From positions 1 through 39,199 of the forward strand of contig JAKAVR010000014.1 of assembly GCA_021817225.1 (NCBI GenBank): 39,199 bases of DNA, written 5' to 3'. The position numbers were made by a program, and so were the translations under genes. Of this stretch, positions 28,393-33,540 are shown one piece after another; position 1 is the stretch's first letter, and every line of letters starts with the position of its first letter. The notes under the pieces were generated by a model, which saw only the letters and a program-made list of their open reading frames with translations, made no database searches and was not told the DNA's origin. The DNA is from Thermoplasmata archaeon. Lineage in GTDB: Archaea > Thermoplasmatota > Thermoplasmata > Sysuiplasmatales > Sysuiplasmataceae.

Positions 28393-29745
28393 TCAGTCAG
28401 TGTCTGCTCCCCTTTCGATGGCCATGCTGTCGAGCGTCCTGTCAAGCTGCTTTGTCCTGTTCTCCTTCACAAACATAAGCAGTATCAGGCCAATGACGAA
28501 AGCCACCGAGGCATAAGCCAGCGAGTCTCCCAGCCCAACCATCTTGGTCAGGGCAGCAATGGCAAAGACAAGACCGGCGCCCGCGTATCTGCCGAGCGCG
28601 GTGATGAGGGCAAAACCACCTGCCCTTGCCTCTGTGGGGTATATTTCCGGAACCCAGAGGGAAAACACTGAGAAATCAGCCCCGCCTATGCCGAGCAGTA
28701 TGAGCAGTGGAAGGAACAGAAACAGATTGTTCGATGTGTAAGCGACCCCGAAGGCGGTGACCAGACCGATTATCATGAATGTCATGAATATCGCAAGGGT
28801 CACCTTCCTTCCCATTCTCCTGACCATATATGGCATGAGCAGACAGAAGAGAAGTGTGAATCCCGAAATCGTTGTACCGCCAAGCACCACATACCATGTT
28901 GCCGTTGCCTTGGGCAGCACGACACCCACCAGGTTGGTAATTGCGGAAGGCGCAAACAGGGTCCCTCCGTAAAGACCGGTTATTACAGGAACCATGACGA
29001 GCACCATGAGGATCGTCGTCTTCCGGTACCGCTGTGAGAACAGCGTTTTGAATGACAGCGACATGTTCATCTTGTTGCCGAATCTCGCCTTCTTCTGCTG
29101 CCACACTTCGGGCTCATTTGCAGCCAGTCTGATGTATGCGAGTATTACTGCCGGAATTATACCTATGAAGAAGATGATCCTCCACCCCGCTGTCCAGCCG
29201 GTTGTTCCCTTGAACACATATAGCAGAAGCAGAGGCGTGGTTACTGCAGCCAAAATGAAGCCTGCATACCAGGCACTGTGGAATCTGCCTGCCCATATAT
29301 GCCTGGACTTCTCAGGGAACACTTCTGAAACCCCGGTCCCGCCGATGAACCACTCCGCGCCAAGTCCGAAACCAGCGATGAATCTCGCTATGCCAAACTC
29401 GGTCAGATTGAAAGATGCGCCGGATAGGAAGGTGCCAATTGCATACAGCAAAATGGCAATGCCCAGTGTTTTCATTCTTCCTACCTTGTCAGCAAGCGGA
29501 CCAAAGGTGAATGCAGTGCCCCAGCCGACTAGGAATATGGCGAAAAACACAAGCACATAATAAGTCCTTTCCGCGATGGTCAGGTGAATACCGCTTGCCG
29601 GCATCAGGAATCCAAGAGATGCCACGATCACAAAGGCGTAGATCGTAGTGTCGTATCCATCAAGCAGCCATCCGAAATAGCTGGCCCAGAAGACATGTTT
29701 CGCAGACGCATCCATTTTGTCCGCGGATGCAACAACCCCCGTCAT
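28393..29745 (-). CDS. MFS transporter, sugar/organic-acid (AAHS/MHS-like) type
   Basis: A 450-residue protein with 12 membrane segments. The N terminus has GWLLDGYDTTIYAFVI, where the Asp in helix 1 is typical of aromatic-acid and metabolite:proton symporters, and GPLADKVGRMKTLG is motif A. LWVPEIYPTEARAGGFAL late in the protein is the conserved segment of this group. It probably imports an organic acid or sugar; the substrate cannot be read from sequence. The ATG at 29745 lies 29 bp after a GTTTATAGC box, so the mRNA is nearly leaderless. Confidence 0.88.
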   Translation of the reverse strand: MTGVVASADKMDASAKHVFWASYFGWLLDGYDTTIYAFVIVASLGFLMPASGIHLTIAERTYYVLVFFAIFLVGWGTAFTFGPLADKVGRMKTLGIAILLYAIGTFLSGASFNLTEFGIARFIAGFGLGAEWFIGGTGVSEVFPEKSRHIWAGRFHSAWYAGFILAAVTTPLLLLYVFKGTTGWTAGWRIIFFIGIIPAVILAYIRLAANEPEVWQQKKARFGNKMNMSLSFKTLFSQRYRKTTILMVLVMVPVITGLYGGTLFAPSAITNLVGVVLPKATATWYVVLGGTTISGFTLLFCLLMPYMVRRMGRKVTLAIFMTFMIIGLVTAFGVAYTSNNLFLFLPLLILLGIGGADFSVFSLWVPEIYPTEARAGGFALITALGRYAGAGLVFAIAALTKMVGLGDSLAYASVAFVIGLILLMFVKENRTKQLDRTLDSMAIERGADTD

Positions 29746-30060: not shown

Positions 30061-30765
30061 TCAGAGGCCGGAGGGGATGTCCATGGAGTGGCCGCCATCC
30101 ACTTCGATCAGCTGGCCAGTGATGAGCGGATTCTCAAGCAGGTGGACTACTGTCCTGCCCACGCTCTGCCCCGGCAACCTCCCTTTCTGAAGCAGGACTG
30201 CTTTCTCGTCACTGTAGCTTTCAGGCCCGCGGCCAAAAAACCCTGGGGAAATACCATTGACTGCAATGTTGTGCTTCATTAGCTCCACAGACAGCTGCCT
30301 GACCATGAAATGCACGCTGCCCTTGCCTGCTGCATAACCGACGTTGCTGTTGAGATAGACATTGGGTGCGGCAGAAACGGCCACAACTGAGCCGCGACCG
30401 CTCGACCTGAGTTGCTCCAGACTGGCACGCACCGTGTTGTAGAAAGTAAGTGCGTTGTTCAGGAGTGCGCCGGTGAAGAACTCCCTGTCTGTGCGTTCTA
30501 TCGTCTCCTTCTTGTAATACCCGCCTGCGGTGTGAACGAGCGAATCCACACTTCCGATGGCTTTGACCGCATCTTCCACCATGCGCGAGACCTGCGCCTC
30601 ATCCATAAGATCGCACGCGATATGTGGAAGGGACAACTCCGATGCCAGTTCGGCACCCATCTTGCCCCTCGAAACAACAACCACTCTATGGCCTGTGCTC
30701 TTCAGCTCCCTTACAATCGCGGCGCCTATGCCGTCACCGACACCGCAAACCAATACGGAACGCAT
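30061..30765 (-). CDS. Short-chain dehydrogenase/reductase (classical SDR)
   Basis: A 234-residue NAD(P)-dependent oxidoreductase. The cofactor motif is CGVGDGIGAAI, the HTAGG block follows strand 4, the catalytic Ser is in VVAVSAAPN and the Tyr-Lys pair is GYAAGKG. LITGQLIEVDGGHSMD is the usual C-terminal signature. VSRGK after strand 2 is a hint of NADP preference. It lies 69 nt after the zinc-ribbon gene and third behind a thiolase-like gene, so a ketoacyl- or hydroxyacyl-reducing step in that pathway is plausible. A GGCGGAAGGGG stretch precedes the ATG. Confidence 0.88.
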   Translation of the reverse strand: MRSVLVCGVGDGIGAAIVRELKSTGHRVVVVSRGKMGAELASELSLPHIACDLMDEAQVSRMVEDAVKAIGSVDSLVHTAGGYYKKETIERTDREFFTGALLNNALTFYNTVRASLEQLRSSGRGSVVAVSAAPNVYLNSNVGYAAGKGSVHFMVRQLSVELMKHNIAVNGISPGFFGRGPESYSDEKAVLLQKGRLPGQSVGRTVVHLLENPLITGQLIEVDGGHSMDIPSGL

Positions 30766-30834: not shown

Positions 30835-31053
30835 TCACAATTTCCTGTAAATCGCCTTTGTCCTGCCCAGCGTGCCCACAATGAGCTCGTAGGAATCCTC
30901 AAAACCTTCCGGTGTGACGGTAAGCATGGCTGAAACAACCGGCTGCGGTTCCCCGGCCTCCAATTCCTCGAACCTTTCCCCGAAACATTGCCGGCAAACT
31001 GCCCTTCTTTCAAATGCCTCGTTGCCGCACGTTTCACATCTGAATATCTTCAC
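30835..31053 (-). CDS. Short DUF35-like zinc-ribbon protein, thiolase partner
   Basis: A 72-residue protein starting MKIFRCETCGNEAFERRAVC with two Cys pairs (C-x2-C and C-x2-C) that form a rubredoxin-like zinc ribbon, followed by beta strands like the first half of an OB fold. This is the DUF35 plan, found next to thiolase-type condensing enzymes; in archaea a DUF35 protein bridges acetoacetyl-CoA thiolase and HMG-CoA synthase. At 72 residues it is about half the usual length, so the OB fold looks incomplete. GTG overlaps the thiolase stop (GTGA), implying translational coupling and a complex. Confidence 0.82.
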   Translation of the reverse strand: MKIFRCETCGNEAFERRAVCRQCFGERFEELEAGEPQPVVSAMLTVTPEGFEDSYELIVGTLGRTKAIYRKL

Positions 31054-32186
31054 CTGACCGCCCCCATTACTGCAGCCACCGCAGAGTTTCCAAATCCTGC
31101 CATGTTCATCATCATGCCATTCTCCGCATGCTTCACCTGGCGCTGCCCTGCTTCGCCCCGTATCTGCTGGAACACCTCCGCAGCCTGGGCGATGCCGGTC
31201 GCGCCGATAGGGTGCCCTTTCGAATTGAGACCGCCGCTGGCGTTTATCGGAAATTCACCGCCAATCTCGGTAACGCCGTCGGCGACAGCCCTCCATCCCT
31301 CGCCCCTCTTGAAGAATCCGAGGGACTCCGACTGCACTATCTCAAGCACGGTGGCCATATCATGCAATTCGGCAAAATCAGGCCTATCCACGCCTGACTG
31401 TCTCTTCGCTATCTCTCCCGCCCTCCTCACAGAGGGTATGTCGGTGAATGTCTTCCTGTCCGTCAGGTAGGCTGCCTCGGAGGACATGCCAATGCCCTTG
31501 ACATAGACAGGTTTGTCTGTGAAGCTCTCCGCAGTTTCATCAGGCACAACGAGAATGGAAGTTGACCCGTCGCTTATCGGACTTATTTCAAAAAGCCTCA
31601 GCGGATCGACTATGACTGCAGACCCCATGACCTGCTCGAGCGTCAGCACCTTCTGTATGTGTGCATGCGGATTGAGCGCACCATTGCGGTGATTCTTGAC
31701 TGCGACCTGGGCCAACGACTCTCTTGGTGCCCCGAATTCTCTCATGTAATCCTTTGCAAGCAGCCCCGCAAGCGAAGGAAGCGACGGCCCGGCAGCCTTC
31801 TCCCTTTCACCAAGAAGAGACGAGATAATCCTGGTGACCTCTTTTGTGGGCTTTTCCGACATCTTTTCCACCCCGACGACCAGGACAGACTTTGCCCTCC
31901 CTGACTCCACGAGAGACACAGCAGTGAAAAGCGCTGCGCCTCCGCTGCCGCTCGTGTTGTCTATCCGTATTGAAGGCAGGGCATCCATCGAGAGGTATGT
32001 TGTGACAAGGTTATTCAGCCCCGATATGCCGTTGAATTCTCCTGAATAACAGTTAGAGACGAGAACAAAGTCAATACTGTCTCTGAATTTCCTGGTGATC
32101 GGGAGTGCGGACTCCGCTGCTATCTCGAGTATATTTTCCTTTCTCTTGCCGAACTTGCCAAAGCCGGCCGAAACAACCGCAGCCAT
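31050..32186 (-). CDS. Thiolase-like protein with Ser replacing the catalytic Cys
   Basis: A 378-residue thiolase-fold protein of the archaeal/SCP-x type. ELHDMATVLEIVQ holds the HD motif and SKGHPIGATG the active His (His325). The nucleophile segment reads IDNTSGSGGAAL where family members have A-C-A-S-G-G-A-A; the Cys position is Ser79. The late C-x-G motif is also lost (NMAGFGNS). Ordinary thiolysis needs the Cys, so the protein may bind acyl-CoA, act as a decarboxylase-like or chain-length factor-like partner, or use Ser. It is the first gene of a thiolase/DUF35/SDR set and overlaps the zinc-ribbon gene. Confidence 0.85.
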   Translation of the reverse strand: MAAVVSAGFGKFGKRKENILEIAAESALPITRKFRDSIDFVLVSNCYSGEFNGISGLNNLVTTYLSMDALPSIRIDNTSGSGGAALFTAVSLVESGRAKSVLVVGVEKMSEKPTKEVTRIISSLLGEREKAAGPSLPSLAGLLAKDYMREFGAPRESLAQVAVKNHRNGALNPHAHIQKVLTLEQVMGSAVIVDPLRLFEISPISDGSTSILVVPDETAESFTDKPVYVKGIGMSSEAAYLTDRKTFTDIPSVRRAGEIAKRQSGVDRPDFAELHDMATVLEIVQSESLGFFKRGEGWRAVADGVTEIGGEFPINASGGLNSKGHPIGATGIAQAAEVFQQIRGEAGQRQVKHAENGMMMNMAGFGNSAVAAVMGAVR

Positions 32187-32325: not shown

Positions 32326-33540
32326 CTACACTCTCTCGACCGGTGTGAGCCTGAACCCCCTCTCCACAAGCTCAGGATAGAAATCTTCAGGACTGAAGGC
32401 AATCTCGGGCGGAAGAACTCCCCTTCTTTCTGCTTTTCCAGAGAGTATGACCCTTGTAGCCGCAGCACCTGGAATGCCAACTGAATATTCGGCCGCTCCC
32501 AGCCCCCACTCCGGTTTTGATGGAAATGTGCATGTCCTTCTCTCGACGACACGCTCCCCACCTCTCTGGCCAGAAACCTCAACCGCCAGACACTCAAAGC
32601 TGTCCGGCCTGCATTTCCTGGGATACCCGAGAAGCCCCTTTGATTTCAGAAGCTCCAGCAGAAAACGCCTTGGTGACACCTTGAGCTCCCCAATCGCCAG
32701 TGCTTTGCTGTCGCCAAACCCGGCATCCGCAAGCAACTTCTGCTCAATGAAACCCGGACCTCCCTCCATCCAGTTGACATTCCTCACTCCCTTTGCCCGG
32801 AAAGATGACGGGAATGTAGCCATTTCGCTGTGGCGCGTGGAATACACAACCGTCTTCCCCACGGGTTCGGGAAAATCATATTCCTCGCTCAGTTCCAGGG
32901 GCCTGTACTTCCTTACCCTTCCTTCCTCATAGACTTCCCCCGGCATTGTGTATTCATCCATGAGCGTCTGTATGGACCATGTGACGAAGAAGGGGGGCAC
33001 ACCTTTGGTGTAGTCGCGCCATCCATCCCTTATCTTGATCGTCTCGACGGAATCCATCCTGTCACAGAGCTCCCGTGCCATCAATCCGCTCAGACCAGGC
33101 TCTGCGCCCATTCCAACAACGGCAAGCAGCCCTGCCTTCCTGAATTCGGAAGAGTGTCTGAGCTGTTTCTTTGTCATCCAGTACAGACCACCAAAATCTA
33201 TGTAATGTGCCCCCACACGAAGGGACAGCTGCATTACCTTCTCATTGAAGTCGTACTGAACCCCGTTTACAAGCACATCCGCTTCCCTCACAGCATCTGC
33301 AGATTCACCCGTGTTCCGTACATCCACCCTGATCGCAGTTGCCTTCCTTGTCCCGCTCAGCCTGTTTGTGCGTTGAGCGACTTCCCTTGCCTTGCCGATA
33401 TCGATGTCTGCAACTATTATTCGCTCGACCTCTTTGGAAAGCGAAAGATCGTAAGAGGCGCACTGACTGACCAGGCCCCCTCCGCCAACTATGGCGACTG
33501 TGGACAGGACGAACCACCCTGCTGCCATGACTGTATGCAC
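32326..33540 (-). CDS. Saccharopine dehydrogenase-like oxidoreductase
   Basis: A 404-residue protein of the saccharopine dehydrogenase/carboxynorspermidine synthase-like family. The Rossmann start VAIVGGGGLVSQCASYDLS is followed by IVADIDIGKAREVAQ, VLVNGVQYDFN and AHYIDFGGLYW, all typical. VGMGAEPGLSGLMARELCD is the conserved segment before the C-terminal domain. Substrate is unknown: the family reduces imines of lysine, spermidine or related amines. Start is GTG 33540; ATG 33528 is a close alternative. It precedes the thiolase-like gene by 139 nt on the same strand, so co-transcription is possible but not clear. Confidence 0.82.
   Translation of the reverse strand: MHTVMAAGWFVLSTVAIVGGGGLVSQCASYDLSLSKEVERIIVADIDIGKAREVAQRTNRLSGTRKATAIRVDVRNTGESADAVREADVLVNGVQYDFNEKVMQLSLRVGAHYIDFGGLYWMTKKQLRHSSEFRKAGLLAVVGMGAEPGLSGLMARELCDRMDSVETIKIRDGWRDYTKGVPPFFVTWSIQTLMDEYTMPGEVYEEGRVRKYRPLELSEEYDFPEPVGKTVVYSTRHSEMATFPSSFRAKGVRNVNWMEGGPGFIEQKLLADAGFGDSKALAIGELKVSPRRFLLELLKSKGLLGYPRKCRPDSFECLAVEVSGQRGGERVVERRTCTFPSKPEWGLGAAEYSVGIPGAAATRVILSGKAERRGVLPPEIAFSPEDFYPELVERGFRLTPVERV

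Follow-up and report, generated by a model that had tools for sequence, protein, structure and literature searches.

In Haloferax mediterranei, the beta-ketothiolases BktB and PhaA are reported to consist of a catalytic alpha subunit with a Ser-His-His triad and an essential beta subunit with an oligonucleotide/oligosaccharide-binding (OB) fold. They condense acetyl-coenzyme A (acetyl-CoA) with acetyl- or propionyl-CoA, as summarized in reviews of Hou et al. 2013 (PMC7137286, PMC9049629); PMC9049629 gives the two specificities differently. Nearly all thiolases work with cysteine, and serine thiolases are chemically puzzling because a Cys-to-Ser change normally kills their thiolase and acyltransferase relatives. 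Here we describe a related gene pair on contig JAKAVR010000014.1 (assembly GCA_021817225.1) of an acid-loving Thermoplasmata archaeon of the family Sysuiplasmataceae; the window, i.e. the whole stretch of DNA analysed, comprises 39,199 nucleotides. The alpha gene (31050 to 32186, minus strand) encodes a 378-residue thiolase-fold protein of the Ser-His-His type, with Pfam matches to Thiolase_N and Thiolase_C_1 and a 477-bit match to the crystal structure 4YZO. No equivalog or subfamily cut-off of NCBIfam was passed. The beta gene (30835 to 31053, minus strand, GTG start) encodes a 72-residue mini-DUF35 protein. By analogy with its nearest characterised relatives, which share the same Ser, His and His as well as overlapping alpha-beta genes and are ketothiolases, the locus probably encodes a Ser-dependent heteromeric beta-ketothiolase of the SCP2-type (archaeal) family and of the "haloarchaeal type", with a reduced beta subunit.

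Active-site residues and the Ser/HDM clade

The first-pass annotation had placed a serine at the nucleophile position and noted that the His and HD motifs remain. Both readings were borne out. In HMMER alignments Ser79 (codon AGC, 31950 to 31952, minus strand) takes the place of the Cys nucleophile found in 6ESQ, in 7YVY and in zebrafish SCP2-thiolase (6hsj). His275 (31362 to 31364, minus strand) belongs to an HDM motif that can be read directly from the sequence and whose counterpart in SCP2-type thiolases is HDCF, and His325 lies in a GHP motif (31212 to 31214, minus strand). Ser79, His275, Asp276, Met277 and His325 are invariant in a 17-sequence alignment of Thermoplasmata, Sulfolobales and Haloarchaea. 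Ser79, His275 and His325 are also shared with loci L111 and L112, and match the published triad by position. A second change, missed by the first-pass annotation, is Met277 (31356 to 31358, minus strand), which replaces the acid/base Cys of HDCF; Met is invariant in the clade and Cys is found in the Cys-type relatives. Both hallmarks of canonical SCP2-type or archaeal Cys thiolases, the nucleophilic Cys and the HDCF Cys, are thus replaced here, by Ser79 and Met277. The late C-x-G motif had been correctly read as lost, but this is not a distinctive feature and carries no special meaning, since Cys-type relatives also lack it and read HNxGGxG. Unlike the C-x-G loss, Met277 reads as an informative second change. 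The only Cys of the alpha subunit, C46, is a Ser in 4YZO, so no conserved Cys exists elsewhere in the active site and another Cys taking over is ruled out.

It is scarcely credible that Ser79 reflects a sequencing error or a gene in decay. In one Thermoplasmatales copy (genome G180, L030/L034) the alpha gene is interrupted by an in-frame TAA and the gene for the adjacent short-chain dehydrogenase/reductase (SDR) is split; this locus is apparently decaying or misassembled. Against such an explanation for the window, Ser is found in every examined relative of the clade, from three archaeal lineages, and in 4YZO, rather than being confined to this genome with Cys in close relatives. In addition, the ratio of nonsynonymous to synonymous substitutions (dN/dS) is about 0.03 against the nearest relative (dN 0.008 and dS 0.29 for a 98% identical alpha), which indicates strong purifying selection. 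Constraint is also seen on the beta and SDR genes in pairs that have diverged further, where dS is near saturation. Error and decay are therefore rejected.

The 51 Ser/HDM proteins in a 72-sequence tree form one group (support 99/99, 99% of bootstrap trees), separate from the Cys/HDCF proteins and including the window's alpha subunit. Its members combine Ser, HDM and GHP and span Thermoplasmata, Sulfolobales and Haloarchaea. The Ser type occurs in 16 of 250 sampled genomes of the window genome's class, and in seven of the eight genomes of its family looked at. At a threshold of 1e-80, matches were obtained in 17 of 98 genomes of Metallosphaera's order (15 of Ser type, two of Cys type) and in 131 of 146 genomes of Halobacterium's class, where residues were called for the 30 best of the 131 matches and all 30 have Ser and HDMF. 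No bacterial Ser/HDM member was seen in a thin bacterial sampling. Work on the Ser-type enzyme has until now centred on salt-loving archaea, and its spread to thermoacidophiles is newly seen here. A small sister group (L052, L054) has a Ser nucleophile with HDAF in place of HDM, followed by a short DUF35 gene (97-101 residues).

A plasmid protein of H. mediterranei is 42% identical to the window's alpha subunit over its full length and is followed by an overlapping gene for a 120-residue beta subunit. The gene order there is alpha, beta, SagB and orc1/cdc6. We infer that this pair is bktB, as the order is compatible with the published tags HFX_6004/HFX_6003 (PMC8387396).

A shortened beta subunit and the proposed reaction

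A DUF35-like gene directly follows nearly every complete Ser/HDM alpha gene, most commonly with a 4-nucleotide overlap, which is also present in L111. In the window this overlap is GTGA (31050 to 31053, minus strand), which agrees with a separate, presumably co-transcribed beta subunit as in the haloarchaeal type. Conservation of Ser together with the same gene order, put forward as a check by the first-pass annotation, is thus clearly seen across the clade. Open reading frame coordinates agree with its description of a thiolase gene overlapping a gene for a 72-residue zinc-ribbon protein and followed by an SDR. The overlap makes the two genes translationally coupled; the wording "fused in translation" went too far, as there is no actual fusion.

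The beta subunit matches zf-ChsH2 (Pfam) below the gathering score and keeps the four zinc-ribbon cysteines, C6, C9, C20 and C23. Its AlphaFold model (predicted local distance difference test, pLDDT, 92) consists of a zinc ribbon and three further strands, the first three of the OB part, and the full OB fold is absent; rows from the plasmid collection were left out of the alignments for the structure models. Foldseek places it closest to the DUF35 subunits that accompany benzoylsuccinyl-CoA thiolase (BbsB), Ltp2, PhlC and Sal, with template-modelling scores of about 0.7 over the query (TMq) and about 0.4 over the target (TMt), i.e. about half of the target is covered. The fold match to DUF35 partners has a TMq of 0.74 and a TMt of 0.44. 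Usual DUF35 partners, with zinc ribbon and full OB fold, have about 120-146 residues, and the window's subunit is about half that length. The half-length partner already noticed in the first-pass annotation is real and is kept in close relatives.

Beta lengths were taken from a list of downstream frames selected by the zinc motif. They are about 118-137 residues in Haloarchaea (a few upstream-extended frames are longer), 105-118 in some Thermoplasmata and genomes of the Sulfolobales order, 86-108 in Thermoplasmatales and many Sulfolobaceae, and 69-79 in the window's family, Metallosphaera and two other Thermoplasmata-like records. Judged from these frames, the beta subunit is reduced in a graded manner from Haloarchaea to the window's family and Metallosphaera, which is a new observation. 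This provides a natural deletion series for the role of DUF35 in such complexes.

The proposed reaction can be outlined as follows. The alpha subunit would bind two CoA thioesters. Ser79, activated by the N-terminus of a helix and by His325, would accept the acyl group, and the second acyl-CoA would be activated by His275 and the oxyanion hole. The outcome would be reversible condensation or thiolysis of a short 3-ketoacyl-CoA such as acetoacetyl-CoA or similar. Through the zinc ribbon and the half-OB part, the 72-residue beta subunit may dock on alpha, and it could complete or stabilise the active site. From what is directly observed (sequence, residues, clade, gene coupling and models), we infer by analogy the activity, carried over at 42% identity, the substrate, the direction and every mechanistic step.

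Residue invariance, the single origin of the clade, SDR adjacency, purifying selection and the fold matches of beta all support a Ser-type beta-ketothiolase. Several points weigh against it. Cys-to-Ser changes kill related enzymes, as with the inactive C88S variant of PhlC (PMC6392133), so Ser catalysis needs other adjustments, and Met277 removes the acid/base Cys. Deletion of the C-terminal part of the H. mediterranei beta subunit lowers polyhydroxyalkanoate (PHA) synthesis by 70% for BktB and abolishes it for PhaA (PMC7137286), and this part is naturally absent in the window. We found no assay of any member of the thermoacidophile branch in the literature. Finally, a PhaC_N search detected no PhaC in the window genome; the haloarchaeal PHA pathway itself is therefore not transferable here, and a role in PHA synthesis is rejected.

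Neighbouring genes and a possible role in acetoacetyl-CoA supply

The SDR gene (30061 to 30765, minus strand; Pfam adh_short_C2) starts 69 nucleotides past the beta gene, and its product has the YxxxK motif as YAAGK. Homologues adjoin alpha, on either side, in several Thermoplasmata (L008/L041, L042, L029/L033, L030/L034, L031/L035, L046). The SDR is a probable 3-ketoacyl-CoA reductase or 3-hydroxyacyl-CoA dehydrogenase partner of alpha, and would interconvert 3-keto- and 3-hydroxyacyl-CoA. Upstream and codirectional lies a saccharopine-dehydrogenase-like gene (32326-33540), which is found beside alpha solely within the same genus and is for this reason excluded from the unit. A CoA-transferase family III gene recurs near Ser-thiolase loci, as does an OYE/NamA-type flavoenzyme in Thermoplasmata and some Haloarchaea (L018, L019, L020-L022, L033, L035, L043, L044, L046). 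A counterpart of the window's major facilitator superfamily transporter (28393-29745), with 40% identity to it, is encoded close to the L035 locus. The neighbouring genes fit with short-chain acyl-CoA metabolism, and do not fix substrate or direction.

One physiological role compatible with a Ser-type beta-ketothiolase would be to supply acetoacetyl-CoA to the mevalonate pathway. It is considered because the thiolase linked to 3-hydroxy-3-methylglutaryl-CoA synthase (HMGS) in the window genome is degenerate: it carries Gly instead of Cys, an HDS motif, and GDP instead of GHP, and has been conserved in this state within the family, most of whose examined genomes have the Ser enzyme. On the other hand, every family genome checked retains an intact Cys-type thiolase that has a DUF35 of its own (L003), and no Ser-type match was obtained in four Thermoplasmatales whose HMGS-linked thiolase is equally degenerate. 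We regard this role as doubtful.

The degeneration itself is widespread. The nucleophilic Cys is lost from the thiolase whose gene lies between those for archaeal HMGS and DUF35, both in the window genome (L037:1691-4331, contig C67) and in 22 of 23 thermoacidophile loci examined across Thermoplasmata and Sulfolobales (L118-L140; L127, one of the 22, is covered in its first half only). Cys is replaced by Gly, Thr, Ser or Asp, and GHP by GDP, GNP, GYP or GFP; L134 alone keeps C/HDAF/GHP. In the window's family the degenerate protein is conserved and under purifying selection, and it resembles a pseudo-thiolase that has been kept as a scaffold. A further thiolase-fold paralogue of the window genome (L039:4834-6306, contig C77; best NCBIfam match PRK06365) carries HDAY and GHP, with Gly where the Cys would stand. 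It is a speculative idea that thermoacidophiles possess a Ser ketothiolase with a half-OB mini-subunit, for which the C-terminal half of beta, needed in haloarchaea, would be dispensable, and which may help to supply acetoacetyl-CoA where the HMGS-linked thiolase is a conserved non-catalytic scaffold.

Comparison with known thiolase-DUF35 systems

The steroid aldolases Ltp2-ChsH2(DUF35) and Sal-Shy(DUF35) also combine a thiolase fold with a DUF35 partner, are non-thiolytic, and are both represented among the Foldseek matches. The window's protein could similarly be a non-thiolytic enzyme on a thiolase fold, i.e. an Ltp2/Sal-like retro-aldolase, a decarboxylase of the malonyl type or a complex that only binds acyl-CoA. 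Both catalytic cysteines are gone, and the nucleophile position is a Gly in Sal. However, the catalytic Tyr of the aldolases (YDHF/YDCY) corresponds to His275 and the acid Cys304 of Sal to Met277, the His of GHP is kept, and haloarchaeal members of the clade are reported as ketothiolases. The absence of this Tyr from the HDM motif (YDxF/Y in the aldolases) weakens the aldolase version, and a steroid-type aldolase is rejected. We thus find a non-thiolytic enzyme improbable overall. Of the "non-thiolytic condensing or acyl-binding complex" of the first-pass annotation, the part that is well supported is a condensing complex of two subunits that binds CoA, while its non-thiolytic character is unlikely, given that BktB and PhaA are working beta-ketothiolases (PMC7137286, PMC9049629).

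PhlC is another fold neighbour with a DUF35 subunit, which brings up a C-acyltransferase of the PhlABC kind, transferring acyl groups onto a non-CoA acceptor. This appears very unlikely, as no PhlA/HMGS-like third subunit adjoins in the window, and PhlC requires Cys88 where the window has Ser79.

We return to a Ser-type beta-ketothiolase as the probable function. The benzoylsuccinyl-CoA thiolase BbsAB (7PXP, 7PYT) also pairs a thiolase with a zinc-ribbon DUF35 protein and heads the Foldseek matches of beta. It differs in its full-length BbsA (about 146 residues) and in its substrate. The archaeal acetoacetyl-CoA thiolase/HMGS/DUF35 complex (6ESQ, 6ET9) shares the SCP2-type thiolase fold and a DUF35 subunit, but its thiolase is of Cys type, HMGS is included and DUF35 is full length (130 residues). 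Closest in structure is the thiolase-like protein 4YZO, ST0096 of Sulfurisphaera tokodaii, which ranks first among the Foldseek matches to the model of alpha and is the best solved relative of alpha. It belongs to the same clade, with about 55-60% identity and a Ser nucleophile. A short DUF35 gene comes next (86 residues in L071, whose alpha shares the tree tip of 4YZO). For ST0096 we found only the structure, and no reported activity, in the literature; it gains a probable function from its clade membership. With this crystal structure at hand and a widespread, old clade, the mechanism of Ser thiolases is directly testable. Closest in probable function are BktB and PhaA, which have the alpha Ser, His and His at the same positions and an overlapping downstream gene for a DUF35/OB-type beta subunit, and belong to the same single clade. 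The window differs from them in its 72-residue beta subunit (about 120 residues in BktB/PhaA), in the absence of the PHA pathway, in the 42% identity of alpha and, as in several other Thermoplasmata, in the adjacent SDR gene.
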